Part shown: piece by piece, positions 9,979 to 54,773 of the stretch
How positions within the stretch are numbered: position 1 is the first letter of the stretch
How the letters are laid out: each line of letters starts with the position of its first letter
Source: an uncultured Clostridia bacterium
GTDB lineage: Bacteria; Bacillota; Clostridia; Saccharofermentanales; Saccharofermentanaceae
Reading direction: 5' to 3'
Assembly: GCA_947165785.1 (NCBI GenBank)
Contig: CAMVBS010000004.1
Coordinates: forward strand, 1-64,000
Length of the DNA: 64,000 nucleotides
Made by a program: the position numbers and the translations under genes
The notes under the pieces: model-generated
Database searches by the model: none
What the model saw: the letters and a program-made list of their open reading frames with translations, nothing else
What the model was told of the DNA's origin: nothing

Positions 9979-10264
9979 ATATCTTAAATGCGTCGATTGA
10001 GAGGAGTAGTCTTCCCAAAGCGGCAACAGGGATGAGAGGTCTTGACTGAGAACCTTTCTTGCAAAAGCCGGGAATATGAAGTTCGCTCATGAGCAGGAGT
10101 GCTGAAGCTGTTGGTTGTAGGCGTTCCCGGAGGTTCACCGTTAACATGAACGAAGAATTGTTGGATTCTTGCTGAGAGCAGCCCTTCACAAGGCTGAAGA
10201 TGGGTGGTAACGCGTATACTATACGTCCCGTCAACGGAGACAATGTCCGTTGGCGGGATTTTTG
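9979..10264 (+). promoter_or_regulatory. T-box leader (tRNA-sensing riboswitch) upstream of paaK
   Basis: The 286-base leader has the order of a T-box: a Stem I region starting with GAGAGGAGTAGTC, the distal GGGATGAGAGG bulge, later stems, then the T-box core GGGTGGTAACGCG (10202-10214; consensus GGGTGGNACCGCG) and a strong terminator. In this family an uncharged tRNA pairs its anticodon with a specifier codon in Stem I and its acceptor end with the T-box bulge, which favours the antiterminator. The specifier is uncertain: the sequence GAAGTTCGCTCATG (10078-10091) would place TTC (Phe) in the expected loop, but one base of shift gives GTT. The T-box call is firm; the amino acid is inference. 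Confidence 0.85.
10226..10264 (+). terminator. T-box conditional terminator
   Basis: TCCCG T CAACGGA (10226-10238) pairs with TCCGTTG G CGGGA (10246-10258), 13 pairs including one T-G wobble, followed by T-rich TTTTTGTTT. It lies directly after the T-box core, as expected for the off state. Confidence 0.85.
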
Positions 10265-10299
10265 TTTATCCGAGAGCAAGATGCGAAAGGAGAAAGAAA

Positions 10300-35000: not shown

Positions 35001-35024
35001 TAAATGACCCGGAGGTTTTAAGTT

Positions 35025-36845: not shown

Positions 36846-36862
36846 TATGAACTACAAGGGAG

Positions 36863-36888
36863 GCCGCCTCGTAAGAGGCGGTTTTCTT
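36863..36888 (+). terminator. Terminator after the 606-residue gene
   Basis: CCGCCTC (36864-36870), loop GTAA, GAGGCGG (36875-36881), then TTTTCTT. It closes the two-gene unit. Confidence 0.8.
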
Positions 36889-36890
36889 AT

Positions 36891-36900
36891 GCTCGAAAAC
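36891..36900. repeat. Partial CTCGAAAA element
   Basis: GCTCGAAAAC directly after the terminator, 58 bases before the next -10 box. Confidence 0.3.
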
Positions 36901-36954
36901 AGTTAAGATTCTGTAACAAATAAACTTTATCAGTTTAAATCGATATCTCGACGG

Positions 36955-36963
36955 TGATATAAT
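36955..36963 (+). promoter_or_regulatory. Extended -10 promoter of the 2119-residue gene
   Basis: TGaTATAAT, no clear -35; start codon 37 bases downstream. Confidence 0.55.
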
Positions 36964-36999
36964 AATGTAGTTGATTTGTGCGCTTTGGGGGAAGTTCAG

Positions 37000-39900
37000 A
37001 TGAGACAAAGACAGTTTAGTCTTAGATATCTGATTTTACTGCTTACAGTATTCCTTTTGCTGGGTTTTTATTCGGCTGACATTAGCGCGGCCGGAGAGAC
37101 AAAGACTTTCTCCATAATCGGCACATATAACCAGACCAAAGCCAGAGAATTGACGCGTATGGTAAATGATTGGCGTCAAAACGGCGGAGATGATCTGTGG
37201 TATTGGAATAAAGGCGATCAGACAAAATCCTATTCCAGAAACTGTGAGACATTACAGTTCAGTTATGATCTTGAGCAGATAGCCATGCAGAGAGCTGCAG
37301 AGCATGTCTTTGGTATGAAAGATCACTACAGGCCCGACGGTTCAGATCCTCTTACATGCAGATACGGTAATTCCAGATCTTGGGGTGAATGTCTTATAAG
37401 GAGTAATTCCAGTCTTACGCCTGAAGCTGTTCTGGAAGCTTTTAAGGAAACGAATCTGGGATATTCAGGTCAGTCCCACAGACGTTGTATGCTTAAGGAG
37501 AGATATGACTTTGTAGGCGCTGCGTGCTTCTACTACAATGGTTATGAATATTGGGCATTGGAATTCGGTTATTCCTGGTCAGAAACATATTTAGGCACGC
37601 CATGTGCACCTGTTAACGAGACCCAAAGACACAATGTAAATCTGAGTCTTGATAATGCCTTGGAAGTGACGGCACAGATAAACAGTAATAACGTCGTATC
37701 CAAGTGTTATCTCGATGATGGAGAAATGGATCTTCCTGATGTAAAAGCAAGTGCGAAGGTAAGCGGAGCTGTGGCGACTGACGGTGTTATCCTGCCTGCT
37801 TCGGATTATGATGTCACCTGGAGTTCTTCTGACGCGACCAAGGTAAAGATCGAGAACGGTAAGATCGTTCCGATCGATGAAGGAACCGTTACCATCACTG
37901 CAACTGCCAAACTGAATTTCAAGGAGAATACGCAGGGAAGCACGTCCTTTACTTTGCAAGTCGAGAGAAGGTCATTATCTTCCGCAACCATAAGTGATAT
38001 CGAAGATCAGCCGTATACGGGAGGAGAGATCTGTCCTGATCCTGTTGTTAAGATCGGTGACAAGACCCTTACCAGGGATACAGACTATACATTAAGCTAT
38101 GAAGATAATATTGACGTTGAAGATGATGCGGCAGTTATCATAACAGGTATCGGCAAATACAAAGGTGTCGTAGAAAAGACTTTCGATATCATCCCTAAGG
38201 ATATCTCCGAGATCGATATCGAAGATCCGTCTTCCGTTGTCTACGACGGAACATTCCACAGACCTGAGATCATCGTCACATATAACGAGATGACCCTTAC
38301 AAATAATATCGATTACAGCAGGTCATCGGCTTCATCCAGATATATGGATGCCGGATCTTATGACATAGAGCTGACAGGTAAGGGTAACTATACCGGTACC
38401 AAAGTGGTCCGGTTCACGATCCTTCCTAAGTCGATCAGTGATTTTTCGATAAGCAGCATCAACGATATGATGTATACGGGATCATCCATGCAGCCTCCTG
38501 TAATGATCTATGATGGCGAAGAGCTTGTTGACGCTGCGAATTTTGATATCGTTTTCGAGAATAATATCCTTCCGGGAATCGCTAAGGTATCTGCTGACGG
38601 TGTCGGAAATTACGAGGGCCATATCGAGACGACATTCAATATCACTCCAAGGAGCATCGAGGACTTCGGCTTTGATTATGAGCGCAGTTTTACTTACGAT
38701 GAGGGAGAGGATATCGAGCCTTCGGTAACCGTATTTTACGGCGGACAGCCGCTGGTGCCTGATACCGACTATGAGGTGACTTACGAGGATAATACGGATT
38801 GCGGTTCAGGTAAGATCATCGTTACGGGCATTGGTTATTTCACGGGTGAGAAAACGCTTACGTTCTCCATCGAACCTAAGGATATCTCAGGATTCGAGGT
38901 CAAGGGCGTGAACGACAAGACATACACGGGACTTGAGATCGTTCAGGAGCCTGTAGTAAAGGGCGATCACGGTAATCTGCGTAACGGCGAGGATTACGAT
39001 ATCTCTTACGAGAACAACATCGAGGCCGGAACATGCGATTACAAGATAACGGGTAAGGGAAATTACTCCGGCGAGATCACCGGGACGTTTAATATCCTCA
39101 GAAGATCCATCAAGTCCATGATCGTGGACGAGGCAGCAGATCAGACCTACACGGGCCTTCAGATCACGCCTTCTGTGACGATCCGCTATGGTGAGACTGA
39201 GCTTGTTGAGGGCGTGGATTTTACCGTATCTTATGGCGAGAATATCAATGCAGGTACGGGTACTTTCACTGTCACGGGTATCGGTAATTTCACTGAAGAG
39301 AAAGAGTATGAATTTACCATCACATCCAGGGATCTTTCTGATCTTCAGACAGAAGACATCCCGTCCGCGGTATTTACGGGAAGCAGCATACAGCCGAAGC
39401 TCACGATAACAGACGGCGAGTATATTCTTCTCGAAAACACCGACTACACACTTTCCTACGAAGAAAATATCACCTCCGGCAGCGGCACCGTTACTGCAGA
39501 GGGTATCGGAAACTACAAAGGCAGCATCGAAAAGACGTTCGCGATCGATCCGAAGGACATGTCCGATCTTGAAGCAGGCAATGTCGCAACATATATCTAC
39601 ACCGGATCTCCGATAACTCCTCAGGTCACTGTCTCTTACGGTGAGATATCCCTTATCCCGGGAACTGATTACGAGATCTCATACAGCAAGAATACTAACC
39701 CGGGTACCGCTGAGATAATCTTCACCGGTAAGGGCGACTACACGGGAAGCCTTACCGTCGAATTTACGATCGAACCTAAGGACCTCAGGAATCTGGCCGT
39801 TGAGCCTTTGAAGGCTGAAGCATACACGGGTGATGAGATCTGTCCTGATGTTACGATCAAAAACGGTGAATATGTCCTTGTCAAAGATCAGGATTACACG

Positions 39901-42900
39901 GTCTCTTATGAGGATAATACCGATCAGGGAACTGCCAAGGTAATCCTTAATGGCATCAACGACTACACGGGTGAAGTTGAGGTTTCTTTCGAGATAGCAA
40001 ACAAGACCGTCTACGATCTGACGGTTGAAGATATTCCGGAGGTAACCTTTACGGGAAGCGCTTTCACGCCTTCAGTCATCGTTAAGGACGGCGATGAGAT
40101 CCTTACTGAAGGTACAGATTACGAACTCTCATACTCTGACAACTGTAGTGCAGGTACGGGCGTCGTAACGATCAAGGGTATCGGCGAATATGCAGGTACC
40201 ATAACCGCACAGTTCGTGATAACTCCGCGTGACATGGACGATCTTACGGTCACGGGGATCATCTCGGAGGCTACTTATACGGGAAGCGAGATAACCATAG
40301 AACCAGTCGTTAAGTACGGCGATACCGAGCTTATCGCAGGTACCGATTATGTGATCACATATTCCGACAATATCAATGCAGGCACGGCTTCCTATACGAT
40401 CAGCGGTGCAGGAAACTTCGGCGGAGATCAGGAAGGCACGTTCGAGATCCTTCCTAAGGATATAAGCGTTCTTACAGTTGACGAGATAAGCTCACAGGTA
40501 TTTACGGGCAATGCGCTCACACCTGTCGTTGTTATCTGGGACGGTGAGACTGAGCTCGTTCTTGATGAGGACTATACTCTTACATATGACGAAGCGGTCG
40601 ATGCAGGAACATACGTGGTAACCGTAAATGGCATCGGCAACTATTCGGGAACTAAGGATGTCGAATTCAATATCCTTCCTGCAGATATCAAAAATGCCGT
40701 TGCAGAAGATATCGATGATCAGGAATTTACGGGAGCAGCCATAACTCCTGTCCCGGTTCTTACATTCGGTGAACTTACTCTCGACAGCGATGATATTTAT
40801 TGCACGTATGATGAGGGTTACTCCACAGGTGTTCACACGGTCACGGTTCACGGCAAGGGCAACTTTACGGGTTCCAAAGATGTGGATTTCATGATCGTTG
40901 CCAAGGATATAAGCGGTTACAGCATAAGCGGACTTACGGACAAGAATTACACCGGACTTCCGGTCGTTATGGATATTACGGTCTCAGACGGTAGTGATGT
41001 TTTGGATGCCGACCTCGATTACGATGTCCTTTTCGAGAATAATACGGATGTCGGAACGGCAACCGTTACCGTTACGGGTAAGGGCGATTACACGGGTACG
41101 ATAGATTCGACGTTCGAGATATTGAAGACTGATATCAGCGGCCTTACGGTAAAGCCTGTAGCAGACGTAACATATACGGGCGAAGCAATACTTCCTGAGG
41201 TCACGATCAATAACGGAAAGTCAACTCTCACTGAAGGCACTGATTTTACATTGTCTGCTGAGAATAACATCGATGCGGGAGAAGTAGAACTCACGATCGA
41301 AGGTATCAATAACTATGAAGGCAGCACGAAGGTAACTTTCAAGATCGTTTCAAAGAGTGTTGAGGATGTGACGGTCGATGAGATAGAAGATAAGGTCTAT
41401 ACAGGCGAAGCCATCGAGCCTTCCGTAGTCGTAAGGGACGGCGAGAACATAATCTCCGACGAGTCCTATGACCTGAGCTACAAGTCCAATCTGAACATGG
41501 GTGACAGTGCGGAAGTTACGATCACGTTCAAGGGAAATTACACAGGATCCAAGACCGTGACGTTCAAGATCGTAGGAAAGCCGGTTACGGATCTTACGAT
41601 GGATCCTATCGAGGACGTTACGTTCTCGGGAAGTAAGTTCGAGCCTGAAGTAACGATCAGGGACGGCGAGAAGATCCTTGTCGAGGGTGAAGACTACAAT
41701 GTTTTCTATTCTGATAACAGAAATGCAGGCGATGCCGTTATAAGGATCGCGGGTATCAACAACTACTCAGGCGAGACGACTTACGGCTTTAAGATCAATG
41801 CGAAGGACATCGCTGATTTTGATCTTACGGGTGTAAGTGAGAATGCAACGTATAACGGCTCCGGGATCACATTCCCGATCCAGCTTTCAGATGGAAATAC
41901 TGACCTTACCGATCAGGATTATACCGTTACATACGCTTCCAATGTCAATGCGGGAACTGCTTCATTGACTGTTGAGGGCAAAGGTAACTACAAGGGAGTT
42001 ATCACAAAGGAATTCAAGATCGATCCGAGAGACTTTACCGAAGTGTCCGTAAATTCCATAGGTGACCAGGCATACACCGGTGACTATATCTGTCCGTCCG
42101 TAGTCGTTAAGGACGGAACGGTGACACTTGCCGAGAATACCGACTATGAGGTAGCTTTCTCGAGTAATAAAGCGGTAAACGAAAACGGAACCATCACGAT
42201 CACCGGAAAAGGCAACTATGAAGGTTCCAAGACCGTGACTTTCAAGATAGTAAGAAGGAACGTCAGTACGCTTAGCATCAGCTCCATCGCGGATCAGACA
42301 TACACGGGCAAGGCCATTACTCCTTCACTTACCGTAAAGCACGGAAATACAACGCTTAAGAACGGAACTGACTATGAGCTTACATACAAGAACAATACCA
42401 ACGCCGGCACGGCAACCGTTACCGTAACGGGACTTGGAAACTACACTGGTACGAAGGATGTGACATTTAAGATCAAGACGCCTCCTGCTACACCGACTCC
42501 GAAGCCTACAGCAGCACCGACAGCCAAGCCGACACCTAAGCCTACCGCTAAGCCGACGGCAGCTCCTACTTCCAAGCCGACTGCGGCGCCTACGCCGGCA
42601 CCGGTCGATCCGATGAAGGATATCAGGGGCTTTGTTGACAGGATCTATCTCTACGTCCTCGGTCGTGATTCCGAGGAGTCCGGCGCAAAGTATTGGAGCG
42701 AAGAGCTCTACTACTTCAGAAGGACCGGCGCTGAGGTTGCTTTCGAATTCATATTCAGTCCTGAGTTTACTGGCAAGAATGTCTCTGACAGGGACTTTGT
42801 AACGATTCTTTACCGTACGTTCTTCGGACGCGAGCCTGACGACGGCGGCATGAACTACTGGCTGTCCCAGATGAGCTCCGGTGCCATGAACAGGCGCGAT

Positions 42901-43359
42901 GTTGCCAATGGCTTCATCTATTCTCAGGAGTGGGCCGACACCTGTGCATCTTACGGCATCTGCTCGGGCGGTACGATCAAGCCTCAGGTCAAGATCGAGC
43001 CTACGAGCCTTACGAATGGATTCGTCGAGCGTATGTACACGACCGCTTTCGGACGAGATTACGATCAGGAAGGTCGTAATTACTGGGCAGGCGAGCTCGC
43101 GAACTTCAACGTCACGGGCGAATATGTCGGCGCGTTCTTCTTCCTGAGCGACGAGATGAACGGCTATCATCTCTCTGATTCCGAATACATTAACAGACTC
43201 TACCTGACGTTCATGGATCGTGAATATGACCAGGGTGGTAAGGACTACTGGATGAATTTCCTTGCACAGGGTCACTCCCGTCAGGAAGTCGTCTACGGAT
43301 TTACCCGCAGCCCTGAGTTCGTCGAGAAGTGCATCGAGGCAAGGATCCTGCCATACTGA
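37000..43359 (+). CDS. Giant secreted CAP / MBG-repeat / DUF4214 protein (2119 aa)
   Basis: Signal peptide about 1-31. A diverged CAP domain about 38-200 (QTKARELTRMVNDWRQNG, YDLEQIAMQRAAEHV, HRRCMLKERYDFVGAACF). A BIG2-like domain about 235-320 (WSSSDATKVKIENGKI..GTVTITATA). Then 20 tandem MBG-like repeats (about 323-1825), a Pro/Thr/Lys linker, and two DUF4214 domains (about 1875-1990 and 2000-2119) ending ARILPY. The repeat fold differs from the Ig-like stalk of the first giant while both ends are homologous, so stalks appear to have been exchanged between the same end modules. ATG 37000 follows TTTGGGGG; an upstream TTG overlaps that site. No sortase signal or TM helix at the C-terminus. 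Confidence 0.85.
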   Translation: MRQRQFSLRYLILLLTVFLLLGFYSADISAAGETKTFSIIGTYNQTKARELTRMVNDWRQNGGDDLWYWNKGDQTKSYSRNCETLQFSYDLEQIAMQRAAEHVFGMKDHYRPDGSDPLTCRYGNSRSWGECLIRSNSSLTPEAVLEAFKETNLGYSGQSHRRCMLKERYDFVGAACFYYNGYEYWALEFGYSWSETYLGTPCAPVNETQRHNVNLSLDNALEVTAQINSNNVVSKCYLDDGEMDLPDVKASAKVSGAVATDGVILPASDYDVTWSSSDATKVKIENGKIVPIDEGTVTITATAKLNFKENTQGSTSFTLQVERRSLSSATISDIEDQPYTGGEICPDPVVKIGDKTLTRDTDYTLSYEDNIDVEDDAAVIITGIGKYKGVVEKTFDIIPKDISEIDIEDPSSVVYDGTFHRPEIIVTYNEMTLTNNIDYSRSSASSRYMDAGSYDIELTGKGNYTGTKVVRFTILPKSISDFSISSINDMMYTGSSMQPPVMIYDGEELVDAANFDIVFENNILPGIAKVSADGVGNYEGHIETTFNITPRSIEDFGFDYERSFTYDEGEDIEPSVTVFYGGQPLVPDTDYEVTYEDNTDCGSGKIIVTGIGYFTGEKTLTFSIEPKDISGFEVKGVNDKTYTGLEIVQEPVVKGDHGNLRNGEDYDISYENNIEAGTCDYKITGKGNYSGEITGTFNILRRSIKSMIVDEAADQTYTGLQITPSVTIRYGETELVEGVDFTVSYGENINAGTGTFTVTGIGNFTEEKEYEFTITSRDLSDLQTEDIPSAVFTGSSIQPKLTITDGEYILLENTDYTLSYEENITSGSGTVTAEGIGNYKGSIEKTFAIDPKDMSDLEAGNVATYIYTGSPITPQVTVSYGEISLIPGTDYEISYSKNTNPGTAEIIFTGKGDYTGSLTVEFTIEPKDLRNLAVEPLKAEAYTGDEICPDVTIKNGEYVLVKDQDYTVSYEDNTDQGTAKVILNGINDYTGEVEVSFEIANKTVYDLTVEDIPEVTFTGSAFTPSVIVKDGDEILTEGTDYELSYSDNCSAGTGVVTIKGIGEYAGTITAQFVITPRDMDDLTVTGIISEATYTGSEITIEPVVKYGDTELIAGTDYVITYSDNINAGTASYTISGAGNFGGDQEGTFEILPKDISVLTVDEISSQVFTGNALTPVVVIWDGETELVLDEDYTLTYDEAVDAGTYVVTVNGIGNYSGTKDVEFNILPADIKNAVAEDIDDQEFTGAAITPVPVLTFGELTLDSDDIYCTYDEGYSTGVHTVTVHGKGNFTGSKDVDFMIVAKDISGYSISGLTDKNYTGLPVVMDITVSDGSDVLDADLDYDVLFENNTDVGTATVTVTGKGDYTGTIDSTFEILKTDISGLTVKPVADVTYTGEAILPEVTINNGKSTLTEGTDFTLSAENNIDAGEVELTIEGINNYEGSTKVTFKIVSKSVEDVTVDEIEDKVYTGEAIEPSVVVRDGENIISDESYDLSYKSNLNMGDSAEVTITFKGNYTGSKTVTFKIVGKPVTDLTMDPIEDVTFSGSKFEPEVTIRDGEKILVEGEDYNVFYSDNRNAGDAVIRIAGINNYSGETTYGFKINAKDIADFDLTGVSENATYNGSGITFPIQLSDGNTDLTDQDYTVTYASNVNAGTASLTVEGKGNYKGVITKEFKIDPRDFTEVSVNSIGDQAYTGDYICPSVVVKDGTVTLAENTDYEVAFSSNKAVNENGTITITGKGNYEGSKTVTFKIVRRNVSTLSISSIADQTYTGKAITPSLTVKHGNTTLKNGTDYELTYKNNTNAGTATVTVTGLGNYTGTKDVTFKIKTPPATPTPKPTAAPTAKPTPKPTAKPTAAPTSKPTAAPTPAPVDPMKDIRGFVDRIYLYVLGRDSEESGAKYWSEELYYFRRTGAEVAFEFIFSPEFTGKNVSDRDFVTILYRTFFGREPDDGGMNYWLSQMSSGAMNRRDVANGFIYSQEWADTCASYGICSGGTIKPQVKIEPTSLTNGFVERMYTTAFGRDYDQEGRNYWAGELANFNVTGEYVGAFFFLSDEMNGYHLSDSEYINRLYLTFMDREYDQGGKDYWMNFLAQGHSRQEVVYGFTRSPEFVEKCIEARILPY
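37966..42474 (+). repeat. 20 tandem MBG-like repeats of about 75 residues
   Basis: Each unit runs from a K/R-D/S-I/L-x-D/L start through YTGxxIxPxVxVxxGxxxL, xxxxDYxxSYxxNxxAG and xGxGNYxGxxxxxFxI. Units are clearly diverged in DNA and protein, so the array is old rather than freshly expanded. Confidence 0.85.
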
Positions 43360-43437
43360 TTGTGCTTAAAGCACAATAAACCGACGCCTGCAGGCCGTGT
43401 CTTTCATCGCGGTGTTATGTATCTTATCTGTCCGTTG

Positions 43438-43446
43438 TGCTATAAT
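43438..43446 (+). promoter_or_regulatory. Extended -10 promoter of the glycan operon
   Basis: TGcTATAAT, 40 bases before the gmd start codon; no clear -35. Confidence 0.55.
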
Positions 43447-43485
43447 AAGTCGTTAATCAAGATAATAACCGAGAGGTGCACTATA

Positions 43486-44511
43486 ATGAAAAAAGCATTG
43501 ATAACAGGAATTACAGGTCAGGACGGTTCTTATTTGGCAGAGCTTCTCCTGGAGAAGGGTTATGAGGTCTACGGTATCGTAAGACGTAAGAGCGTTGCTG
43601 ATTACGGCAATTCCAATCACCTTGTGGGAAAGGTAAATTTCATCTATGCGGATATGACGGATCCGATCTCTCTTATCTCCGCAATGAAGATCTCACAGGC
43701 TGACGAAGTATATAACCTCGCAGCTCAGTCCTTTGTCGCTACATCATGGGAGCAGCCTCTCGCTACTGCAAATATCGACGCCATCGGCGTAACAAACATG
43801 CTCGAGGCAATTAGGACAGTTAAGCCGGAAGCTAAGTTCTATCAGGCTTCAACTTCCGAGATGTTCGGTCTCGTTCAGGAAGTTCCTCAGAAGGAGACAA
43901 CTCCTTTCTATCCGAGATCACCATACGGCGTTGCTAAGCTCTATGGTCACTGGATCACAAAGAACTACAGAGAGAGCTACGGACTTTTCGCATGCTCCGG
44001 TATCCTCTTTAATCACGAGTCGGAGAGAAGGGGTCTTGAGTTCGTAACAAGAAAGATCACAAATACGGCAGCTAAGATCAGCCTCGGTCTTGAGGATCAC
44101 CTCGAGCTCGGTAACTTAAGTTCCAAGCGTGACTGGGGTCACTCCAAGGATTACGTCAGGGCTATGTGGCTCATGCTCCAGCACGACACACCTGATGATT
44201 ACGTAGTTGCCACAAACGAGACAAGAACAGTCCGTGAATTCTGCGACGTTGCTTTCAAGGAACTCGGCATGGAGCTCGAGTGGAAGGGCGAAGGCGTAGA
44301 TGAGATCGGTGTTGATAAGAAGACAGGTAAGACAGTCGTTAAGGTAAACCCTAAGTTCTTCCGTCCTGCAGAAGTAGATCTTCTCATCGGAGATCCTTCA
44401 AAGGCTGAGAAGACACTCGGCTGGAAGAGAGAGATCGATTTCGCTGAGCTCGTAAAGCGTATGGTCAGAAACGATCTTGAGATCGTAAAAAAAGAGAACG
44501 GACTTGCTTGA
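43486..44511 (+). CDS. gmd: GDP-mannose 4,6-dehydratase
   Basis: A 341-residue extended [24 protein letters not shown] is the Gmd-type NAD(P)-binding start, STSEMFG and [12 protein letters not shown] contain the catalytic Thr/Ser, Glu, Tyr and Lys, and the arginine-rich IVRRKS loop is typical. It converts GDP-D-mannose to GDP-4-keto-6-deoxy-D-mannose. ATG 43486 follows GAGAGG; the frame is open 42 codons upstream, across the promoter, which I discount. The stop codon overlaps the start of the reductase gene, so the two are translationally coupled. It opens the glycan operon. Confidence 0.93.
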
Positions 44512-45425
44512 TGAAAGTACTTCTTATTGGTGCGAACGGTTTTGCCGGCAGATATCTGAGACGTGAACTCGAGAACAATTCGTACGAGGTCATCTGCGTT
44601 GATGCGGTAACTTCGGATCCGAGTGTCAGAAGGATCGATATGCTCGACCCTGAGGCAAGCGAGGAACTTATTAAGGAAACTGCCCCGGATTACATCTTTA
44701 ATCTTGCGGGACAGGCAGCTCCGAGCATCTCATGGGAGAAGGTCCTCCTTACGATGCATCTTAATATCGATATCTCGGTAAATATCCTGGAAGCAGTTCG
44801 TAAGCACTGCCCGAAGGCACGTGTTATCCTCATCGGATCTGCGAACCAGTATGACGGCAGCAAGGCGGCAGACGGTGTCATCTCTGAGGAGACGCCGCTT
44901 AATAACACGTCGCCATATGATATATCGAAGAATACTCAGGAAGAACTTGTAAGGATGATGGTCAGAAGATATGACCTGGATGTCATCATGACAAGATCTT
45001 TCAATCATATAGGTCCTGGTCAAAGACCTGGCTTTGTAGTTACCGACTACTGCAAGAGGATCGTTTCCCTTGAAAGAGGCGAGATCGATACCTTCACATT
45101 CGGTAATCTCGATTCATGGCGTGATTTCTCTGATGTAAGAGACGTAGTAAGAGCCTATAGGCTCATTGCTGAAAACGGCGTCAAGAACGAGATCTATAAC
45201 ATCGGTTCCGGTAAGAGTTTTTACATCAGGGACATCATCGGAAAACTCGTTGAGCTGAGCCCGAAGGCGATGGAGAAGGTTACTTTGCCGCCAAGGCTTC
45301 CGGATGATGAACTGGTTCATGTAAGGGCAGATATCAGTAAGCTCAGAAGCGTGTGTGATTTTGAACCGGAATATGATGTTTTCGAGACGATAAAGGATGT
45401 TCTCGAAGAATACAGGCAATTATAA
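44511..45425 (+). CDS. rmd: GDP-4-keto-6-deoxymannose reductase (Rmd-like)
   Basis: A 304-residue extended SDR. GANGFAGRYL is the Rossmann motif, GSANQYDG holds the catalytic Ser, SPYDISKNTQEEL the YxxxK pair, and RSFNHIGPGQRPGFV is shared by the Rmd/RmlD-like reductases. With Gmd it would form GDP-D-rhamnose; it does not look like the epimerase-reductase for GDP-fucose. GDP-6-deoxy-talose is an alternative product I cannot exclude. ATG 44511 shares one base with the stop of gmd. Confidence 0.85.
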   Translation: MKVLLIGANGFAGRYLRRELENNSYEVICVDAVTSDPSVRRIDMLDPEASEELIKETAPDYIFNLAGQAAPSISWEKVLLTMHLNIDISVNILEAVRKHCPKARVILIGSANQYDGSKAADGVISEETPLNNTSPYDISKNTQEELVRMMVRRYDLDVIMTRSFNHIGPGQRPGFVVTDYCKRIVSLERGEIDTFTFGNLDSWRDFSDVRDVVRAYRLIAENGVKNEIYNIGSGKSFYIRDIIGKLVELSPKAMEKVTLPPRLPDDELVHVRADISKLRSVCDFEPEYDVFETIKDVLEEYRQL

Positions 45426-45435
45426 GGAGACTTAG

Positions 45436-46218
45436 ATGTTAAAAGAGATCTGGGATTATCGACAGATGATAATCAGTCTTGTCCGTAAGGACTTAAGAGG
45501 CCGCTATAAGGGATCTGTACTCGGATTCCTGTGGACTTTTGTTAATCCTCTGTTCCAGCTCATTATCTATACTGTCGTATTTACATATCTTCTTCCGAGC
45601 GGTATCGACAAGTACTATCTGTTCCTGTTCGTAGCGCTCATCCCGTGGATCTTTTTCTCTTCGGCTGTCGTCGGAGGCTCGACTTCCATACTGTCGCAGA
45701 AAGACCTTGTCAAAAAGATATATTTCCCTCGAGAGGTCCTGCCGATCTCTTACGTAACGAGCTGTTTTGTTAACATGCTGTTCTGCTTCATCATCGTTTT
45801 TGCGGTCGTCCTGATCTCGAAGACGAGCGTTCATCCGCTGGGAATAGTATATCTTCCGGTGGTAATGATAGTCGAATATTTCCTGGCGCTCGGTATTGCC
45901 ATGATCACATCTGCGATAACAGTCTATTTCAGGGATTTCGAGCATATCCTCGGCATCATCACGATGGCGTGGATGTATCTTACGCCTGTCCTTTATCCGC
46001 AGACTTTGTATGATAATCTTCCAAAGCAGATCAAGTTCTGTGCAGAGCACATCAATCCGATGACATCCATCATCAGTGCCTACAGAAGGATACTTTACGA
46101 CGGATCGGTCCCTGATATGTCGACGCTTCTCGAGGCTACCGTACTCGGAGCGATATTTATCGTATTGGGTTTCCTCATTTTCGGAAGACTTAAGAAGCAC
46201 TTCGCGGAGGAACTCTGA
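45436..46218 (+). CDS. wzm: Polysaccharide ABC exporter permease
   Basis: A 260-residue ABC-2 type permease with six predicted membrane helices. The N-terminal LVRKDLRGRYKGSVLGFLWTFVNPL and the central FVNMLFCFIIVFAVVLISK and MAWMYLTPVLYP match the Wzm/TagG family. It would form the channel moving an undecaprenyl-linked glycan across the membrane with the ATPase encoded one base downstream. GGAGA precedes ATG 45436 by a short spacing. Confidence 0.88.
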   Translation: MLKEIWDYRQMIISLVRKDLRGRYKGSVLGFLWTFVNPLFQLIIYTVVFTYLLPSGIDKYYLFLFVALIPWIFFSSAVVGGSTSILSQKDLVKKIYFPREVLPISYVTSCFVNMLFCFIIVFAVVLISKTSVHPLGIVYLPVVMIVEYFLALGIAMITSAITVYFRDFEHILGIITMAWMYLTPVLYPQTLYDNLPKQIKFCAEHINPMTSIISAYRRILYDGSVPDMSTLLEATVLGAIFIVLGFLIFGRLKKHFAEEL

Positions 46219-46219
46219 T

Positions 46220-47485
46220 ATGGCAGAAAATTCGATCGTAATCAAGAACGTAACAAAACAGTTCAAGGTCTACTTTGACAAGGGCCAGAGTTTCAAGGAG
46301 AGGATCATCTTCAAGAACAGGAACAGGCACGAGGACAGAGTAGTCTTAAACGATATCTCACTGACCATAGAGAAGGGTCAGGCCGTAGGTCTTATCGGAC
46401 ACAACGGCTGCGGTAAGTCAACGCTTCTCAAGCTCATGACGAGGATCCTTTATCCGGACAAGGGCAGCATCGAAGTTCAGGGCCGCGTATCGAGCCTCAT
46501 CGAACTTGGTGCAGGCTTCCATCCTGACATGAGCGGCAGGGAGAACATCTACACGAATGCTTCCATCTTCGGCCTCTCGAAAAAGGAGATCGACCGTCGT
46601 CTCGACGATATCATCGCTTTCTCCGAACTTGAAGAATTCATCGATAACCCGGTAAGGACATATTCTTCCGGTATGTATATGAGACTTGCGTTCTCCGTTG
46701 CCATCAACGTTGATGCTGATGTGCTCCTGATCGACGAGATCCTCGCCGTAGGTGACGCCAACTTCCAGGCAAAGTGTTTTGCCAAGCTTCAGGAGATCAA
46801 GTCCAAGGGTACGACGATCGTCATCGTTTCACACTCGCTCGATCAGATCGAGGCATTCTGTGACAGGTCCGTATGGATCAATGACGGCAAGATCGTAGCA
46901 GACGGAGTCCCGAGGGAGATCCATCTCGACTACATGGATTATATGGCAGGTCTTCGTAACGAGCAGCAGAAGAAAGACAAGGCCCGCGAGAAGAAGAACG
47001 AAGAGAAAAAAGCCGAGGAAGAGGCCGAGAAGAAGGAAGAATCCAAGCGCTGGGGTAACGGTGACGCCAAGATAACTGACGTCAAGGTCCTGGACGGTGA
47101 CGGCAATGAAAAGACCGTCTTCCACGTAGGTGATGCCATAAAGGTGAGGATCGCTTACAAGGTCAACAAGAAAGTCGAGGACGGTGTCTTCGGCATCGGT
47201 ATCTTCAGGAATGACGGAGTCTTCTGCTACGGAACCAATACCAGAATCGACAGGATAGAGCGCTTTGATATAATTGAAGACGGAGTGCTCGAGATAGAGA
47301 TGCCGAAGGCGGATCTTCTCCCGGGCAAGTACTTAGTCGACCTCGCGATCGAGTGCGGCAGAGGCATTCCGGTGGACTACTACAAAGAAGCTTGCGTTTT
47401 CGAGACGTATTCCAAGCGCGGTGACAGCGGCATTGCCAGGATCGATCAGAAATGGCACATGCCTGATAACATAAAGAATTCATAA
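46220..47485 (+). CDS. wzt: Polysaccharide ABC exporter ATPase with C-terminal glycan-binding domain
   Basis: A 421-residue ATPase. Walker A GHNGCGKSTL, signature YSSGMYMRLAFSVAI and Walker B LLIDEILAVGD define a TagH/Wzt-type ABC domain (about 1-245). A Lys/Glu-rich helical linker of about 40 residues (around 255-295) leads to a C-terminal beta-sandwich (about 300-415) with VLDGDGNEKTVFHVGD, like the Wzt carbohydrate-binding domain. In Wzt proteins that domain recognises the modified end of the finished chain before export. ATG 46220 begins one base after the permease stop; longer upstream readings of the frame overlap wzm and lack a ribosome-binding site. Confidence 0.9.
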   Translation: MAENSIVIKNVTKQFKVYFDKGQSFKERIIFKNRNRHEDRVVLNDISLTIEKGQAVGLIGHNGCGKSTLLKLMTRILYPDKGSIEVQGRVSSLIELGAGFHPDMSGRENIYTNASIFGLSKKEIDRRLDDIIAFSELEEFIDNPVRTYSSGMYMRLAFSVAINVDADVLLIDEILAVGDANFQAKCFAKLQEIKSKGTTIVIVSHSLDQIEAFCDRSVWINDGKIVADGVPREIHLDYMDYMAGLRNEQQKKDKAREKKNEEKKAEEEAEKKEESKRWGNGDAKITDVKVLDGDGNEKTVFHVGDAIKVRIAYKVNKKVEDGVFGIGIFRNDGVFCYGTNTRIDRIERFDIIEDGVLEIEMPKADLLPGKYLVDLAIECGRGIPVDYYKEACVFETYSKRGDSGIARIDQKWHMPDNIKNS

Positions 47486-47498: not shown

Positions 47499-48554
47499 AT
47501 GAAGATAGCGTTGCTCACGACACAGATACCTTTTATCAGAGGCGGTGCGGAGATGCATGTGGAAAACCTCCGTAAGGCACTCGTAGCTGCCGGCCATCAG
47601 GTCGAGATCATAACGGTCCCTTTTAACGACGGTCCTATCTCGAGGATCGAAGATCATATCGTTGCCATGAGACTTCTGGACGTAAGCGAGTCCTGGGGCG
47701 GAAGGATCGATTTCGTTATCGGAATGAAATTCCCTGCATACCTGATCCCGCACCCTAACAAGGTTATGTGGATCTTGCATCAACACAGACAGGCCTATGA
47801 CCTGTTCGGTACGGAGTATTCCAATTTCCGTGACGATGACGAGGGCAGAAGGCTTCGCGACATCATAACAAAGGCAGACGAGAAGTATCTTGCTGAGGCA
47901 AAGCATATCTTCGCGAATTCCGGAAATGTTTCCAAGCGTCTGAAGAAGTTCTGCGGTCTTAATTCGACACCGCTTTACCATCCTTGTCCTGACATGGATA
48001 AGTTCTACTGCAAGGACTCTGAGGATTATCTGCTCATGCCGAGCCGTATCAATATGACCAAGAGACAGTTTCTGGCTCTCGAGGCGCTTGCGAAGACCAA
48101 GTCCAACATCAAGCTCTATATCGTCGGTGCGGCTGATAATGAGCAGATGAAGACATGGCTTTTGGAAGGGATCGAGAAGCACGGCCTTAAAGATCGCGTT
48201 AAGTACTTCGACTTTGTAGAGCAGGATAAGAAGATCGAGCTCTACGCCAACTGTCGAGGTGTCGTATTCATTCCGAAGGATGAGGATTACGGTTATATCA
48301 CACTGGAAGCTATGGCTTCTTCAAAGCCTGTCATTACTGCAACTGACAGCGGCGGACCTTTGGAGTTCGTTGATAACGGAGTTAACGGATTTGTCTGCGA
48401 TCCTACTCCTGAGTCGATCGCGGAAGCGATGGACAGACTCGGAAGCGATAAGAAAAATGCGATCGCAATGGGTGTCGAGGCTAAGGCAAAGATCACTGAG
48501 AAGAATATTTCATGGGAGCATGTCGTAAGTGAACTTCTGAAGTTTGCTGACTGA
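47499..48554 (+). CDS. GT4 family glycosyltransferase
   Basis: A 351-residue GT-B glycosyltransferase. The N-terminal TTQIPFIRGGAEMHVENL is the acceptor-side loop of GT4; EDYGYITLEAMASSKPVI is the nucleotide-sugar EX7E motif. A polypeptide segment HPCPDMDKFYCKDSEDYLL precedes the donor domain. It probably adds GDP-mannose or GDP-rhamnose to the growing chain (inference from operon context). It lies 13 bases after wzt with GGAAGGG before ATG 47499. Confidence 0.85.
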   Translation: MKIALLTTQIPFIRGGAEMHVENLRKALVAAGHQVEIITVPFNDGPISRIEDHIVAMRLLDVSESWGGRIDFVIGMKFPAYLIPHPNKVMWILHQHRQAYDLFGTEYSNFRDDDEGRRLRDIITKADEKYLAEAKHIFANSGNVSKRLKKFCGLNSTPLYHPCPDMDKFYCKDSEDYLLMPSRINMTKRQFLALEALAKTKSNIKLYIVGAADNEQMKTWLLEGIEKHGLKDRVKYFDFVEQDKKIELYANCRGVVFIPKDEDYGYITLEAMASSKPVITATDSGGPLEFVDNGVNGFVCDPTPESIAEAMDRLGSDKKNAIAMGVEAKAKITEKNISWEHVVSELLKFAD

Positions 48555-48559: not shown

Positions 48560-49753
48560 ATGAAGAAACTGGGTTTTGTAGTTCCTTGGTATGGAGAGAA
48601 GATCCCGGGAGGCGCCGAGATGGAGCTTCGCGGCGTTACTTCGCACCTTCATGCCGCAGGTGTGGAACTCGAGATCCTTACGACATGCGTAAAGCAGTTC
48701 GACAGTAACTGGAACGAGAATTTTCATAAGCCGGGCGAGACGGTCGAAGGCGGCATCAAGGTAATAAGGTTTCCTGCAGGGAAGAGGAACAGCGCTGAAT
48801 TTGACAGGGTCAACAGGATCCTCATGAGAGGAAGAGTACCCAAAGAGAGCGATCAGAAGATCTTTTTCGATGAGATGATAAACAGCCCTGAGCTTTATAA
48901 GTATATGGCAGAGCATAAGGATGACTACAGCCTTTTTGTATATGTGCCGTATATGTTCGGAACAACGGTGAACGGGATCAAGGTGTGTCCTGAAAAGTCA
49001 GTCGTCATACCGTGTTTTCACGATGAGGCATATGCTCATATGGACGTTCTGAAACCCGTTTTCGCGAGCGTAAAGGGGCTTGTATTTAATGCGGAGCCTG
49101 AAAAAGAACTCGCGCAAAGGCTCTACGATCTTAAGGATGTAAAGACGATAGTCATGGGCATCGGCGTGGACTGCGGTCTTACGGGTGATCCGCAAAGGTT
49201 CAGGGAGAAATATGATATCAGCGAGCCGTTTATCCTTTATGCGGGACGTAAAGATGAGGGCAAGAATGTCCATACGCTCGTTAAGTATTTCGCAGAGTAT
49301 AAAAAGCGCAATCCTTCGGATATGAAACTGGTCCTTATCGGAGGCGGTAACATAGAGCTTCCGGCTGATCTTGTTGCATCAGGAGCGATCAGGGATCTGG
49401 GATTTGTGGATCTTCAGGATAAGATAGATGCGGAAGCTGCGTCACTTCTTTTGTGTCAGCCTTCCAAGAACGAGAGTTTCTCGTTGGTCATCATGGAGAG
49501 CTGGCTCGGCAAAAGGCCTGTTATCGTGCACGAAGATTGTGCGGTAACCAAGCATTTTGCGATCGACTCGAAGGGCGGACTTTACTTTAAGAACTACTTC
49601 GATTTTGAAGGTGCGGTTGATTTTATCGTGAACAATAAGGACATCGCTGATAAGATGGGGGAGAACGGATATGAATATGTGCGCTCGAACTTCGACTGGG
49701 ATGTCGTGACTAAGAAATATATCGAATTTTTCGAGCTTTGTACGGAGGCTTAA
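48560..49753 (+). CDS. GT4 family glycosyltransferase
   Basis: A 397-residue GT-B protein, paralogous to the one encoded at 51.6-52.8 kb: both have YGxxxxGGAExxxxxL at the N-terminus, a central cytosolic-looking PxxHDE motif, and ESFSLVIMESW (the EX7E). The C-terminal half has YAGRKDEGKNVHTLVKYF. Likely one of the chain-extending transferases. Acceptor and linkage unknown. It begins five bases after the previous gene. Confidence 0.85.
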   Translation: MKKLGFVVPWYGEKIPGGAEMELRGVTSHLHAAGVELEILTTCVKQFDSNWNENFHKPGETVEGGIKVIRFPAGKRNSAEFDRVNRILMRGRVPKESDQKIFFDEMINSPELYKYMAEHKDDYSLFVYVPYMFGTTVNGIKVCPEKSVVIPCFHDEAYAHMDVLKPVFASVKGLVFNAEPEKELAQRLYDLKDVKTIVMGIGVDCGLTGDPQRFREKYDISEPFILYAGRKDEGKNVHTLVKYFAEYKKRNPSDMKLVLIGGGNIELPADLVASGAIRDLGFVDLQDKIDAEAASLLLCQPSKNESFSLVIMESWLGKRPVIVHEDCAVTKHFAIDSKGGLYFKNYFDFEGAVDFIVNNKDIADKMGENGYEYVRSNFDWDVVTKKYIEFFELCTEA

Positions 49754-49754: not shown

Positions 49755-50156
49755 ATGGACAACAGTGTAGATATCGAGAAGATCATGGAGAATATCCGTG
49801 AAGAGATCGTGAAAAGCGGCAAGGATAAGCAGCCGCTGTCCTTCAAGGACGTTGAATCGACGGAGCGTAACGGCGATCTCGATGAAGCGATCGATTATAT
49901 CTCCTATAACTATGAAGTCCAGCCGTATGCACCGCTCGGCGGTAATAAGATCGCGGTCTTCTTTAAGAAGGTCATCAGAAAGATCACCGGATTCTTCGTT
50001 CTTCCGGTAGTAAGGCAGCAGAACACTCTGAACTATTACTACTACAGAGTGGCTGAGACGATCGGTGAGGTAAAGAGCGATAACGAGGAACTCAAAAAGC
50101 GTGCCGAACTTCTCGAGAAGCGCGTCAAGGTACTTGAGGAGAAGGCAGGGAAATAA
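49755..50156 (+). CDS. Small coiled-coil protein of the glycan operon
   Basis: A 133-residue protein without signal peptide or TM helix. After a charged N-terminus (IEKIMENIREEI) there is KKVIRKITGFFVLPVVRQQNTLNYYYYR, an amphipathic segment, then a C-terminal coiled coil (about 100-130). The amphipathic segment matches the one in the next gene product (VRKFTAFMIDPIVRDQNSID). Such segments also occur at the N-termini of membrane-associated sugar methyltransferases and glycosyltransferases in O-antigen loci, where they may dock to the membrane. I do not recognise a named family. It starts two bases after the preceding gene. Confidence 0.6.
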   Translation: MDNSVDIEKIMENIREEIVKSGKDKQPLSFKDVESTERNGDLDEAIDYISYNYEVQPYAPLGGNKIAVFFKKVIRKITGFFVLPVVRQQNTLNYYYYRVAETIGEVKSDNEELKKRAELLEKRVKVLEEKAGK

Positions 50157-50158
50157 GA

Positions 50159-50533
50159 ATGGACGTACGTAAGACATTGGACGAACGTTACGAAACTTCG
50201 ATGAAGGATCTGCCTGATGTTAAGGTAGAGCCGTTCGATTCCGTGCCGCTCGCATATAATAACGAGGGTACCACCGGTTCCCTGAAGCACTGCATCAACT
50301 ATATCCGCAAGAACCGCGGAGTATCATATAACGGGCTTGATAAGAAGGGAAGGATCGTTCGTAAGTTCACGGCTTTCATGATCGATCCGATCGTCCGTGA
50401 CCAGAATTCGATCGATGATAAGTTCACGGTCGCACTCCTGGAACTGTTCAAGCTCTACAAGGAAAGAGAGTCACTTTATAACAGGATAAATGCGCTCGAA
50501 GCCGAGATCGTAAGACTGGAGTCAAGATCATGA
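50159..50533 (+). CDS. Small coiled-coil protein of the glycan operon, related to the preceding one
   Basis: A 124-residue protein. The segment RKFTAFMIDPIVRDQNS aligns with RKITGFFVLPVVRQQNT of the preceding product, and both end in a predicted coiled coil (here FKLYKERESLYNRINALEAEI). The N-terminal part PLAYNNEGTTGSLKHCINYIRK differs. Its stop overlaps the start of the next glycosyltransferase (ATGA), so expression is coupled. A chain-length regulator, membrane tether or subunit of a transferase are possible roles; none is shown by the sequence. Confidence 0.6.
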   Translation: MDVRKTLDERYETSMKDLPDVKVEPFDSVPLAYNNEGTTGSLKHCINYIRKNRGVSYNGLDKKGRIVRKFTAFMIDPIVRDQNSIDDKFTVALLELFKLYKERESLYNRINALEAEIVRLESRS

Positions 50534-51615
50534 GATTATTTCAGGTACTTACAACTCTATCATTCGGTGACGCGGTGAGTAATGATGCCGTCGCGATAAT
50601 GGATCTTGTCAATAAGAACGGCTACAAGATGAATACATATGCCGAGCATATCGATACCAGGATGACATCCATAAGCGGCGTCAAGGACATAAACGACCTT
50701 CCGAAGCTTAACGATGACGATATCATGATCTATCATCTGTCGACGGGTACTGATCTTAACCGTAAGATCAAGTCATTCGGCGGACGTAAGCTCCTTATCT
50801 ATCACAACATTACTCCGCCTAAGTACTATGCGAAGTATTCGGGACTTTCCGCACGCCTTTGTTCCAAGGGACGTAACGAAGCGGCAAGCCTCAATCAGAC
50901 ATTCGAAGCATGTCTTCCGGTGTCTGAGTATAACATGAGAGACCTTCGCGAGATGGGTTATACCTGTCCGATGGCGATAAGGCCGATACTCATCCCGTTC
51001 GATGATTATAAAAAAGAGCCTGATCAGGAGGTCATCTCCAAATACTCCGGTGACGGCGTTAAGAACGTGGTCTTCGTAGGAAGGATCGCGCCTAACAAGA
51101 AGCATGAAGATCTTATTACTCTCATGAGCGCATATAAGCAGATGTATAACGATAAGATCCGTCTGTTCCTGGTTGGAAATCCAACGGGAACCGAAAACTA
51201 TGATAAAAGGCTCAAAGATTATGCAAAGCTTCTTGATCTGGATAATGTGATCTTTACCGGACAGGTATCCTTCAAGGCGATACTTGCATATTATAAGATC
51301 GCTGATGCTTTCGTATGCATGAGCGAACACGAGGGATTCTGTGTTCCTTTGATCGAGGCAATGTGCTTTGACGACCCGATCATAGCCGCATCAAATGCTG
51401 CGGTCCCTGATACTTTGGGAGGAACGGGAATACTTATCGACAATGCCGACTTTAAAAGATCCGCGTTCATGCTCCACGAAGTCCTTAATGACGAGGCTTT
51501 GCGAAGCGAGATCATCGAAGGTCAGAGAAGAAGGCTCGAAGACTTTTCTTATGAGAAAGTATCGGCTCTTTTCATGGAGCAGCTTCAAAGATTCATCAGA
51601 GGTGAAGCATTATGA
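50530..51615 (+). CDS. GT4 family glycosyltransferase
   Basis: A 361-residue GT-B protein. FVGRIAPNKKHEDLI is the start of the donor domain and EHEGFCVPLIEAM the EX7E motif. IYHLSTGTDLNRKI and LIYHNITPPKYY resemble N-terminal parts of mannosyl/rhamnosyl transferases of the WbpY/MtfB type (weak inference). ATG overlaps the preceding stop as ATGA, and its own stop overlaps the next ATG in the same way. Confidence 0.85.
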   Translation: MRLFQVLTTLSFGDAVSNDAVAIMDLVNKNGYKMNTYAEHIDTRMTSISGVKDINDLPKLNDDDIMIYHLSTGTDLNRKIKSFGGRKLLIYHNITPPKYYAKYSGLSARLCSKGRNEAASLNQTFEACLPVSEYNMRDLREMGYTCPMAIRPILIPFDDYKKEPDQEVISKYSGDGVKNVVFVGRIAPNKKHEDLITLMSAYKQMYNDKIRLFLVGNPTGTENYDKRLKDYAKLLDLDNVIFTGQVSFKAILAYYKIADAFVCMSEHEGFCVPLIEAMCFDDPIIAASNAAVPDTLGGTGILIDNADFKRSAFMLHEVLNDEALRSEIIEGQRRRLEDFSYEKVSALFMEQLQRFIRGEAL

Positions 51616-52805
51616 GAATATGTTTTGTTGTGCAAAGATACGGTGACGAAGTAAACGGCGGTGCGGAAGTTCACGCCAAGCAGCTTGCCGAGCACGTAAA
51701 TGACCTCACGGATCACGAAGTTGAAGTTGCTACGACCAAGGCCATCGATTACGTGACCTGGAAGAATGAATATGAGAAAGACGAAGAGATCATAAACGGT
51801 ATCAAGGTAAGAAGGTTCCCTGTCGTTAATGAGCGTAACCAGGAAGTCTTCAACAAATATTCATCCAAGATGGCGGTCGGCGATCATTCCATCGAGGAAC
51901 TTGAGGAATGGATGCGCCTTCAGGGACCTGAGTGTCCGTCTCTTATCGAGTGGCTCGGTGCCCACAGGGATGATTATGACTGCTTCGTTTTCCTGACATA
52001 TCTTTATTACACGACATACTTCGGCCTAAAGGCAGTTGGAAAGAAAGCTGTCCTTATCCCGACTGCGCATGACGAGTGGACTATCCATCTTCCTCTTTTT
52101 GAGAAGATGTTCACTCTCCCGGGCGCATTTTTCTATAACACGACTGAAGAGAAAGAACTCGTCAACACATACTTTTCGACAGGAAACATCCTTGATAACA
52201 AGGGTATAGGCGGCGTAGGCGTAGAAGTTCCGCCTGTTGTAGATGCCGAGGCATTCAGGAAGAAGACCGGCATCACCGGCGATTTCATGGTCTATATCGG
52301 AAGGATCGATGAGAATAAGTGCTGCCCTGAGCTCTTCAGATATTTCAGAGAGTACAAGGACCGTCACAAGGATTCCGATCTTAAGCTCGTTCTCGCAGGT
52401 AAGGAAGTCATCAAGGTCCCTGAGGCTGATGACATCATCCCGCTGGGATTCGTATCCGAGGAAGATAAGTTCAATGCCATCGCGGCTTCGAAGTTCCTGG
52501 TACTCCCTTCATGGTTCGAGAGCCTGTCGATCGTAGTACTCGAAGCAATGAAACTTAAAAGACCCGTTCTCGTCAGCGGCCGCTGCGACGTTCTCAAGGC
52601 TCATTGCCTGAAGAGTAACGGCGGACTTTATTACACGGATTTCCTCGAGTTCGAGGGCGCAACCGATTACCTTCTCTCACATCCTGATGAGTGCAGGATC
52701 ATGGGCGAGAACGGCATCGAATACGTTAATGAGAACTACAGCTGGGAAGGCATCGTCGAGAGACTTGATGCCATCATGAAGAAGGTCGCACTCTCGGGAG
52801 TATAA
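51612..52805 (+). CDS. GT4 family glycosyltransferase
   Basis: A 397-residue GT-B protein, paralog of the transferase at 48.6 kb (QRYGDEVNGGAEVHAKQL, IPTAHDEWTIHLPLF, YIGRIDENKCCPELF, ESLSIVVLEAMKLKRPVL). It is the last gene of the plus-strand run; it ends overlapping the convergent HAD hydrolase gene by 32 bp. Likely a chain-extending rhamnosyl- or mannosyltransferase, by context only. Confidence 0.85.
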   Translation: MRICFVVQRYGDEVNGGAEVHAKQLAEHVNDLTDHEVEVATTKAIDYVTWKNEYEKDEEIINGIKVRRFPVVNERNQEVFNKYSSKMAVGDHSIEELEEWMRLQGPECPSLIEWLGAHRDDYDCFVFLTYLYYTTYFGLKAVGKKAVLIPTAHDEWTIHLPLFEKMFTLPGAFFYNTTEEKELVNTYFSTGNILDNKGIGGVGVEVPPVVDAEAFRKKTGITGDFMVYIGRIDENKCCPELFRYFREYKDRHKDSDLKLVLAGKEVIKVPEADDIIPLGFVSEEDKFNAIAASKFLVLPSWFESLSIVVLEAMKLKRPVLVSGRCDVLKAHCLKSNGGLYYTDFLEFEGATDYLLSHPDECRIMGENGIEYVNENYSWEGIVERLDAIMKKVALSGV

Positions 52806-53639: not shown

Positions 53640-53690
53640 AACAGACAAGCACTTTTCAAGAGTGCCATTAAGTTGCAAAAGAGGCATCAA

Positions 53691-54773
53691 ATGAAACGAA
53701 CAGCAGTTATAATGGCAGGCGGCGGCGGAACACGCTTTTGGCCTGTATCCAGAATGGCAACACCTAAGCAGCTCGTTAAGCTTACCGGAACAGACGTTAT
53801 GCTCAACGAGACGATCAAGCATTACGAGAACGTAATCGGAAGAGAATCCACATTCATAGTAACAAATGAAAAGCAGGCCGAGCTCATGAATGAGGTGCTT
53901 TTTCCTGAGGTCGACAGATCTCATATCCTCATCGAGCCGGTTCAGAGAAACACAGCTCCGTGCATCATCTATGCAGCCATGACACTTAAGAAGCTCTACG
54001 GTGATGCGCTTATGGCAGTGCTTCCTGCAGATCATCATATCTCTGATATCAAGGAGTACGAGAGGATCCTCGACCTCGCATTTAAGACGGCAGAAGAAAC
54101 TGACAGGATCGTAACTATCGGCATCTGGCCTAAGTTCCCGTCAACGGGCTACGGCTATATCAGATTTTCTACCAATCCTATCGAGCCTGGTTCTGAGATC
54201 TACCATCTCAGACGTTTTGTCGAGAAGCCGCGTGAATCGGTAGCAAAGGAATATCTCCAGTCAGGTAAGTACCTCTGGAACTCGGGAATGTTCATCTGGA
54301 AGGCTTCAGTCATCCTCGAAGAATTCAAGAAATTCCTTCCTGACACTTATGCAAAGATGGAATCCATCTTTGATTCACTGAGGACTCCTGACGAGAAGGA
54401 TGCGATCGCGAAGGTATATCCTGAACTCGATAAGATCTCCATCGACTACGGTATCATGGAGAAGACATCCGATGTTTACTGTATCCCTGCAGAATTCGGT
54501 TGGAACGATGTAGGATCATGGGATACGCTCGATTCAGTATTTCCTCATGACGGCGATGACAATGTAATAGTAGGAGACTACGAAGGTATTGATACCGAGA
54601 ACACCGTAATCTTCAACAAGTCCAATGACAAGATCATTACTACTATCGGAGTAAAGGACCTCGTTATCGTCCAGACTGAAGATTCAATCCTTGTCTGTTC
54701 CAAAGAACAGGCACAGGATGTTAAGCTCATGGTCGACCACCTTAAGGAAAGAGGAAGAGAAGATCTTCTCTGA
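53691..54773 (+). CDS. manC: Mannose-1-phosphate guanylyltransferase
   Basis: A 360-residue nucleotidyltransferase. GGGGTRFWPVSRMATPKQL is the signature of GDP-mannose pyrophosphorylase, with LPADHHI, TIGIWPKFPSTGYGYI and FVEKP following the family. It makes GDP-mannose from mannose-1-phosphate and GTP, the substrate of Gmd. It lacks the C-terminal isomerase domain of bifunctional ManC/AlgA proteins. ATG 53691 follows GAGG at spacing 6. It has its own promoter downstream of the glycan operon and completes the GDP-rhamnose pathway. Confidence 0.9.
   Translation: MKRTAVIMAGGGGTRFWPVSRMATPKQLVKLTGTDVMLNETIKHYENVIGRESTFIVTNEKQAELMNEVLFPEVDRSHILIEPVQRNTAPCIIYAAMTLKKLYGDALMAVLPADHHISDIKEYERILDLAFKTAEETDRIVTIGIWPKFPSTGYGYIRFSTNPIEPGSEIYHLRRFVEKPRESVAKEYLQSGKYLWNSGMFIWKASVILEEFKKFLPDTYAKMESIFDSLRTPDEKDAIAKVYPELDKISIDYGIMEKTSDVYCIPAEFGWNDVGSWDTLDSVFPHDGDDNVIVGDYEGIDTENTVIFNKSNDKIITTIGVKDLVIVQTEDSILVCSKEQAQDVKLMVDHLKERGREDLL

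Follow-up and report, generated by a model that had tools for sequence, protein, structure and literature searches.

The window analysed here, a 64,000-nucleotide stretch of DNA from an uncultured Clostridia bacterium of the Saccharofermentanaceae (contig CAMVBS010000004.1), contains two small genes, smA (49755..50156, on the + strand like all window features given below; 133 amino acids (aa)) and smB (50159..50533; 124 aa), located between two pairs of GT4-family glycosyltransferase (GT) genes of a glycan operon. In this study, we found that the two proteins correspond to the N-terminal anchor-and-coil module of a group of coiled-coil methyltransferases, and that the gene for this module is nearly always followed by one particular GT gene, GT3 (50530..51615). 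Based on these results, smA and smB probably form a catalytically headless membrane tether, or scaffold, which recruits GT3. What the sequences themselves reveal is the homology with the fused module, the shared gene slot, the co-occurrence with GT3, the conservation of the small genes, and the absence of this methyltransferase family from most relatives; membrane binding, pairing of A with B, and a direct contact between the module and GT3, with GT3 acting as the polymerase, are what we infer from them.

Association with GT3

Among 79 relatives, the module family was found in 16 genomes, always in two copies, and all of these genomes have GT3 (16/16 decidable). The sole relative with GT3 and no module (G044) has its locus cut by a contig end. 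Across the class, the same 7 of 291 genomes carry both GT3 and a strong module match, some with a free and some with a fused module; the naive chance of this is 3e-14, a figure which, like all co-occurrence statistics here, ignores shared ancestry. In G482, a weak module match adjoins a truncated GT3. Of 48 cases examined, the gene after the module is GT3 in 43, and the two genes mostly overlap (-4 or -1). In G013, G021, and locus L092, each module copy is followed by its own GT3 copy. Because they are found almost solely beside GT3, the small proteins probably hold GT3 at the membrane. An earlier interpretation of this DNA, made without database searches (the sequence-only reading), had offered tethering of the transferases as one possible role, and the close linkage of the module to a single GT agrees with this idea. 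When GT3 was compared with the E. coli O9 proteins, its best match was the WbdA polymerase, at just 50 bits.

Homology to a methyltransferase module

The small proteins had been likened to free-standing versions of segments normally fused to sugar methyltransferases or glycosyltransferases. The methyltransferase part of this claim holds even when the coiled coils are excluded, as comparison of core with core gave an hhalign probability of 99.2 (E 3.4e-19). In searches made in both directions, a hidden Markov model of the methyltransferase N-terminal cores recovered the smA-type genes of the loci with E values of 3e-8 to 8e-19, and matched smB weakly. The small-protein profile, in turn, matched N-terminal regions of coiled-coil methyltransferases from three genomes, namely that of the window (389 aa, on contig C17), G234, and G386. 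Stronger matches came from G607 (a protein of 441 aa) and G512 (484 aa), with the methyltransferase gene located directly 3' of wzt. A tblastn search of the fused N-terminus from L052 against plasmids gave no match. The glycosyltransferase part of the claim did not hold up: no intact fusion was found, the sole instance being a GT2 C-terminal remnant joined in frame to smA in L079.

Fused and free modules occupy the same slot, with the order wzt-[module-coil-methyltransferase]-GT2 in L098 and L100; in L101, as in the majority of the genus, the order is wzt-[module]-GT3. The fused heads are of the Methyltransf_23 type and once, in L090, of the FkbM type, and smA and smB have no catalytic domain, as both proteins stop after the coil and lack any Pfam or NCBIfam match. 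The same anchor-and-coil module is thus combined with various heads, or with no head at all.

The methyltransferase domain was found in only one of 59 genus genomes, that of the window itself, and thus the pair is independent of this methyltransferase. Accordingly, 15 of the 16 genus genomes having the pair do so without this methyltransferase family, a count which covers this family only, such that other methyltransferases may be present, and which includes some incomplete assemblies. Six of the genomes with the pair but without the family are at least 97% complete (G001, G012, G013, G017, G019, and G030).

Two further observations concern methyltransferases. Contig C17 of the genome to which the window belongs carries a module-bearing methyltransferase gene followed, near the contig end, by one for a 782-aa GT-like protein (L051:8963-12499), and in L057 a similar methyltransferase is paired with a 783-aa protein within the main operon. 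Also, 17-residue tandem repeats (ENIRNLNSQLDGYDKIV type) form the N-terminal coil of methyltransferases in loci of other families, with five copies in L095:8500-9792, about four in L094:7340-8704, and one or two in L080, L083, and L087; this repeat coil is a candidate for a ruler of variable length.

Properties of smA and smB

Both open reading frames (ORFs), which the sequence-only reading had placed identically, start with ATG and are real, and its description of them as two small related coiled-coil proteins in a glycan operon agrees with our finding that they are diverged paralogues. Their relatedness was detected by phmmer (E ~3e-6) among the 310 ORFs of the window, with no further window ORF being significant, and none of 1000 shuffles matched the observed score, even when the coiled coils were cut away. 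Searches against Pfam, NCBIfam, and PDB sequences gave no family match for either protein, only weak and mostly coiled-coil matches, and a Foldseek search of the small-protein models against PDB gave a single, non-significant match.

AlphaFold2 predicts three helices in each protein (residues 7-21, 42-52, and 65-130 of smA; 3-16, 38-51, and 62-123 of smB). The N-terminal helix of smA (49773..49817; residues 7-21), a helix in the model, carries an IM..IR..I motif which is invariant in the alignments. The wider pattern [IV][DN][VI]xxIMxxIRxxI is nearly invariant and is common to smA and the single-copy homologues, and the IM..IR..I motif is also found in several fused methyltransferases; smB lacks it. 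The last helix is predicted to begin with a cationic stretch, to continue through an R-K-x3-F-x3-P-x4-Q-N core (RKxxxFxxxPxVxxQN in smA), and to end in a coiled coil of ~38 residues. In smA, the cationic amphipathic stretch (49947..50000; residues 65-82) is a candidate membrane-surface helix, with a hydrophobic moment of 0.64 and a charge of +5 for residues 64-81 (shuffle p 0.008), close to the family mean charge of +5.5. Thus, the term amphipathic applies well to smA and only weakly to smB.

The core motif that had been read from the sequence is exact in both proteins, as RKITGFFVLPVVRQQN in smA (49977..50024; residues 75-90) and RKFTAFMIDPIVRDQN in smB (50360..50407; residues 68-83). Across relatives, its Q and N are invariant or nearly so and its F and P are mostly retained, and the second R is not conserved. 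The coiled coil of smA (50034..50144; residues 94-130) is of near-constant length in the group, and that of smB (50417..50527; residues 87-123) is about equal to it in length. The heptad pattern is strong in smA (0/5000 shuffles) and weaker in smB (p ~0.05). Past the core, A has a tail of 37-43 residues and B one of 35-40, and this match in length makes a coiled coil between A and B plausible.

Distribution and conservation

Fourteen of the 16 module-bearing relatives have an adjacent A-B pair, and the other two, G013 and G021, have the order wzt-sm-GT3-sm-GT3. A scan of named genomes gave 40 loci carrying the module, with the pair in nearly all Saccharofermentans-like rumen and gut Clostridia and usually a single copy in Lachnospiraceae, Oscillospiraceae, and others. 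Velocimicrobium and Hominifimenecus strains, for instance, carry the locus with one copy. Free forms are spread through Clostridia, and only one Saccharofermentans-like group has the A/B pair. Most of the genomes surveyed are metagenome assemblies, and gene content elsewhere in the genome was judged from targeted searches. The sequence-only reading would have been weakened if the pair were absent from other rhamnan loci. The module is in fact present there, albeit mostly as a single copy in other families, with the two-gene pair only in the one group. In a tree of the module, A forms one clade (100/100) and B another (99/98), with single-copy and fused forms intermixed; the tree separates A clearly from B, without fixing its root or showing whether fusion or fission came first. 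Where it could be computed, the ratio of nonsynonymous to synonymous substitutions (dN/dS) of the small genes was 0.06-0.14, indicating purifying selection. In L081, the linker region of smA (10001-10387) is interrupted by an in-frame TAG, either real or a sequencing error of the metagenome assembly. A weak A1 match in G584 was rejected, as it looks like an unrelated coiled-coil membrane protein.

Operon organization

The genes around smA and smB are tightly packed: the last nucleotide of GT2 is 49753 and the first of smA is 49755, smA extends to 50156 with smB following at 50159, and the TGA of smB and the ATG of GT3 share 4 nucleotides. The first GT pair consists of GT1 (47499..48554) and GT2 (48560..49753), and the second of GT3 and GT4 (51612..52805), all four being GT4-family glycosyltransferases. 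GT1 and GT2 separate the small genes from wzt (46229..47485; the start is our choice, as the mechanical ORF begins at 46076), which encodes an exporter ATPase with a C-terminal Wzt_C domain. Upstream of it are wzm (45436..46218; ABC-2 permease) and the genes for GDP-mannose 4,6-dehydratase (gmd) and an rmd-like epimerase/reductase (43360..45425), which would supply GDP-D-rhamnose; slightly downstream of GT4 is a manC-like mannose-1-phosphate guanylyltransferase gene (53673..54773). Judging from this gene set, the product would be a D-rhamnan made by an ABC-transporter-dependent pathway. In the close relatives L056, L057, L078, and L081, a module-bearing methyltransferase lies between GT1 and GT2, where the window has none. 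GT2 is decayed or absent in many relatives retaining the small pair, and GT2-like C-terminal remnants lie 5' of smA in L063:9523-9981, L065:9498-9959, L072:2365-2970, and L079:5876-6940.

Further upstream, positions 25932-43359 of the window encode three large proteins, each with C-terminal DUF4214 repeats (four matched stretches each), two of them with a CAP domain and one with many Ig domains. Proteins resembling these three recur in the module-bearing glycan loci L056, L078, L080-L082, L087, L089, and L091-L093, and DUF4214 might bind rhamnan or be carried by it.

Proposed role and alternatives

We propose that smA and smB represent, without any catalytic head, the anchor-and-coil module with which the coiled-coil methyltransferases of ABC-transporter-dependent polysaccharide loci, presumed chain terminators, begin. 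Through the cationic stretch and the F-x3-P-x4-Q-N core, the proteins would attach to the membrane on its inner side, and their coiled coils would associate, probably as an smA-smB pair. GT3, along with its partner GTs, would be recruited by the module and oriented on the lipid-linked chain close to Wzm/Wzt. Several observations weigh against this proposal. The next gene is GT2 or GT4 in 5 of the 48 cases; common descent of a single operon accounts for part of the co-occurrence with GT3; and Wzt and, in many loci, GT4 also co-occur with the module. Moreover, smB has neither the N-terminal motif nor strong amphipathicity, and the AlphaFold2 models are of moderate confidence, with a predicted local distance difference test score (pLDDT) of 72-78 and a predicted template modelling score (pTM) of ~0.4.

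The sequence-only reading had also considered a molecular ruler, in which the coiled coils fix the distance between a polymerizing GT and a terminator, and hence the length of the chain, following the example of WbdD. Loci of this kind do encode methyltransferases with the module and coil, the spacer of these fused forms differs between lineages (64 to 183 residues), and in the group the coil length of the small proteins is as constant as a spacer should be. However, smA and smB carry no catalytic head, the methyltransferase family is missing from all but one of the genus genomes with the pair, and the tails differ little in length. A strict ruler is unsupported because the terminator that it needs at the far end of the coil is missing here, and we regard this role as unlikely. 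The near-constant tail fits a fixed spacer rather than a WbdD-style ruler between polymerase and terminator, and it is possible that smA and smB act as a spacer of fixed length. Slightly less likely than the ruler, in our estimation, is an adaptor role, in which a separate methyltransferase terminator docks on the small proteins by coiled-coil pairing. A methyltransferase gene with its own N-terminal coil lies directly 5' of the small gene in five cases from other families, and close relatives of the window have a module-bearing methyltransferase in the same operon; nevertheless, that family is missing from most genus genomes keeping the pair, and the methyltransferase of the window's genome is outside the operon, on contig C17.

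Another alternative is that the small proteins couple synthesis to export, by bringing the synthesis complex to Wzm/Wzt and not to GT3; in its favour, wzt is the nearest labelled upstream gene in 25 cases. It is not adjacent, however, in the window, its closest relatives, or several Lachnospiraceae loci, and G005 and G023 have more distant Wzt homologues with no module found there; we give this exporter coupling the same low likelihood as the adaptors. It is most improbable that smA and smB are decaying remnants of a methyltransferase that has lost its catalytic domain. Although homology to the methyltransferase N-terminus, the GT2 remnants indicating gene decay in the operon of some relatives, and the in-frame stop of the L081 smA would agree with decay, the low dN/dS, the conserved length, the retention of the pair throughout the group, and the tight coupling to GT3 do not, and this conservation largely refutes it.

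Relation to coiled-coil terminators

The closest counterparts are the class I S-adenosylmethionine-dependent methyltransferases of clostridial and other Firmicutes Wzm/Wzt loci (L098, L100, L052, and C17), whose N-terminal module and coil are homologous to smA and smB and which, in L052, L098, and L100, take the slot after wzt just as the free module does. They differ in having a C-terminal methyltransferase, whereas smA and smB have no catalytic domain and come paired.

A proposed functional parallel is WbdD of E. coli O9/O9a and Klebsiella O3/O5, a terminator with a coiled-coil ruler and a membrane-associated amphipathic helix that also recruits WbdA. As here, WbdD has a coiled coil beside a cationic amphipathic helix and works with ABC export involving Wzt_C. 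The E. coli O9 gene order, wzm-wzt-wbdD-wbdA, parallels the wzm-wzt-module-GT3 of most relatives, with GT1 and GT2 interposed in the window. Despite these similarities, direct homology was rejected, since the best match to WbdD of E. coli HS O9 was a non-significant 7.8 bits (residues 574-638, including the cationic helix), and neither a WbdD-type methyltransferase nor a kinase head was found in smA or smB with Pfam and NCBIfam. Furthermore, in WbdD the catalytic domains precede the amphipathic helix, which lies towards the C-terminus; the fused methyltransferases here have the reverse order. Because of this reversed order and the lack of sequence homology, the likeness is proposed as one of working alike and not of membership. 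In E. coli O9a, WbdA is brought to the membrane by the non-catalytic C-terminal region of WbdD (PMC3482155), and smA and smB would perform this recruitment job without the capping job. Similarly, scaffolding at the membrane is carried out by coiled-coil proteins in Klebsiella O4 and O7, and the coiled-coil terminators of Klebsiella O4/O7 and O12 (ORF7-O4, ORF6-O7, and WbbB) offer a precedent for a coiled-coil membrane scaffold of a GT complex, with interactions between polymerase components in such machines demonstrated by two-hybrid analysis (PMC11231755).

More tentatively, we speculate that the system is a dismantled WbdD-like machine, in which a dedicated, non-catalytic A/B coiled-coil subunit serves the polymerase of a clostridial D-rhamnan as its scaffold at the membrane, evolutionarily interchangeable with the scaffold fused to a methyltransferase terminator and working in genomes without that family. 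Such a machine would have to end its chains by some other route. The stand-alone module itself poses the question of what terminates these rhamnans; it would also allow recruitment to be studied separately from capping, and it gives a functional hypothesis for proteins unnamed in any library searched. Chain length and export of ABC-transporter glycans have so far been described via coiled-coil terminators such as WbdD, with anchoring, GT recruitment, spacing, and capping in one protein, whereas here the anchor-and-coil part stands alone, tied to one GT across Clostridia and retained without the methyltransferase family.
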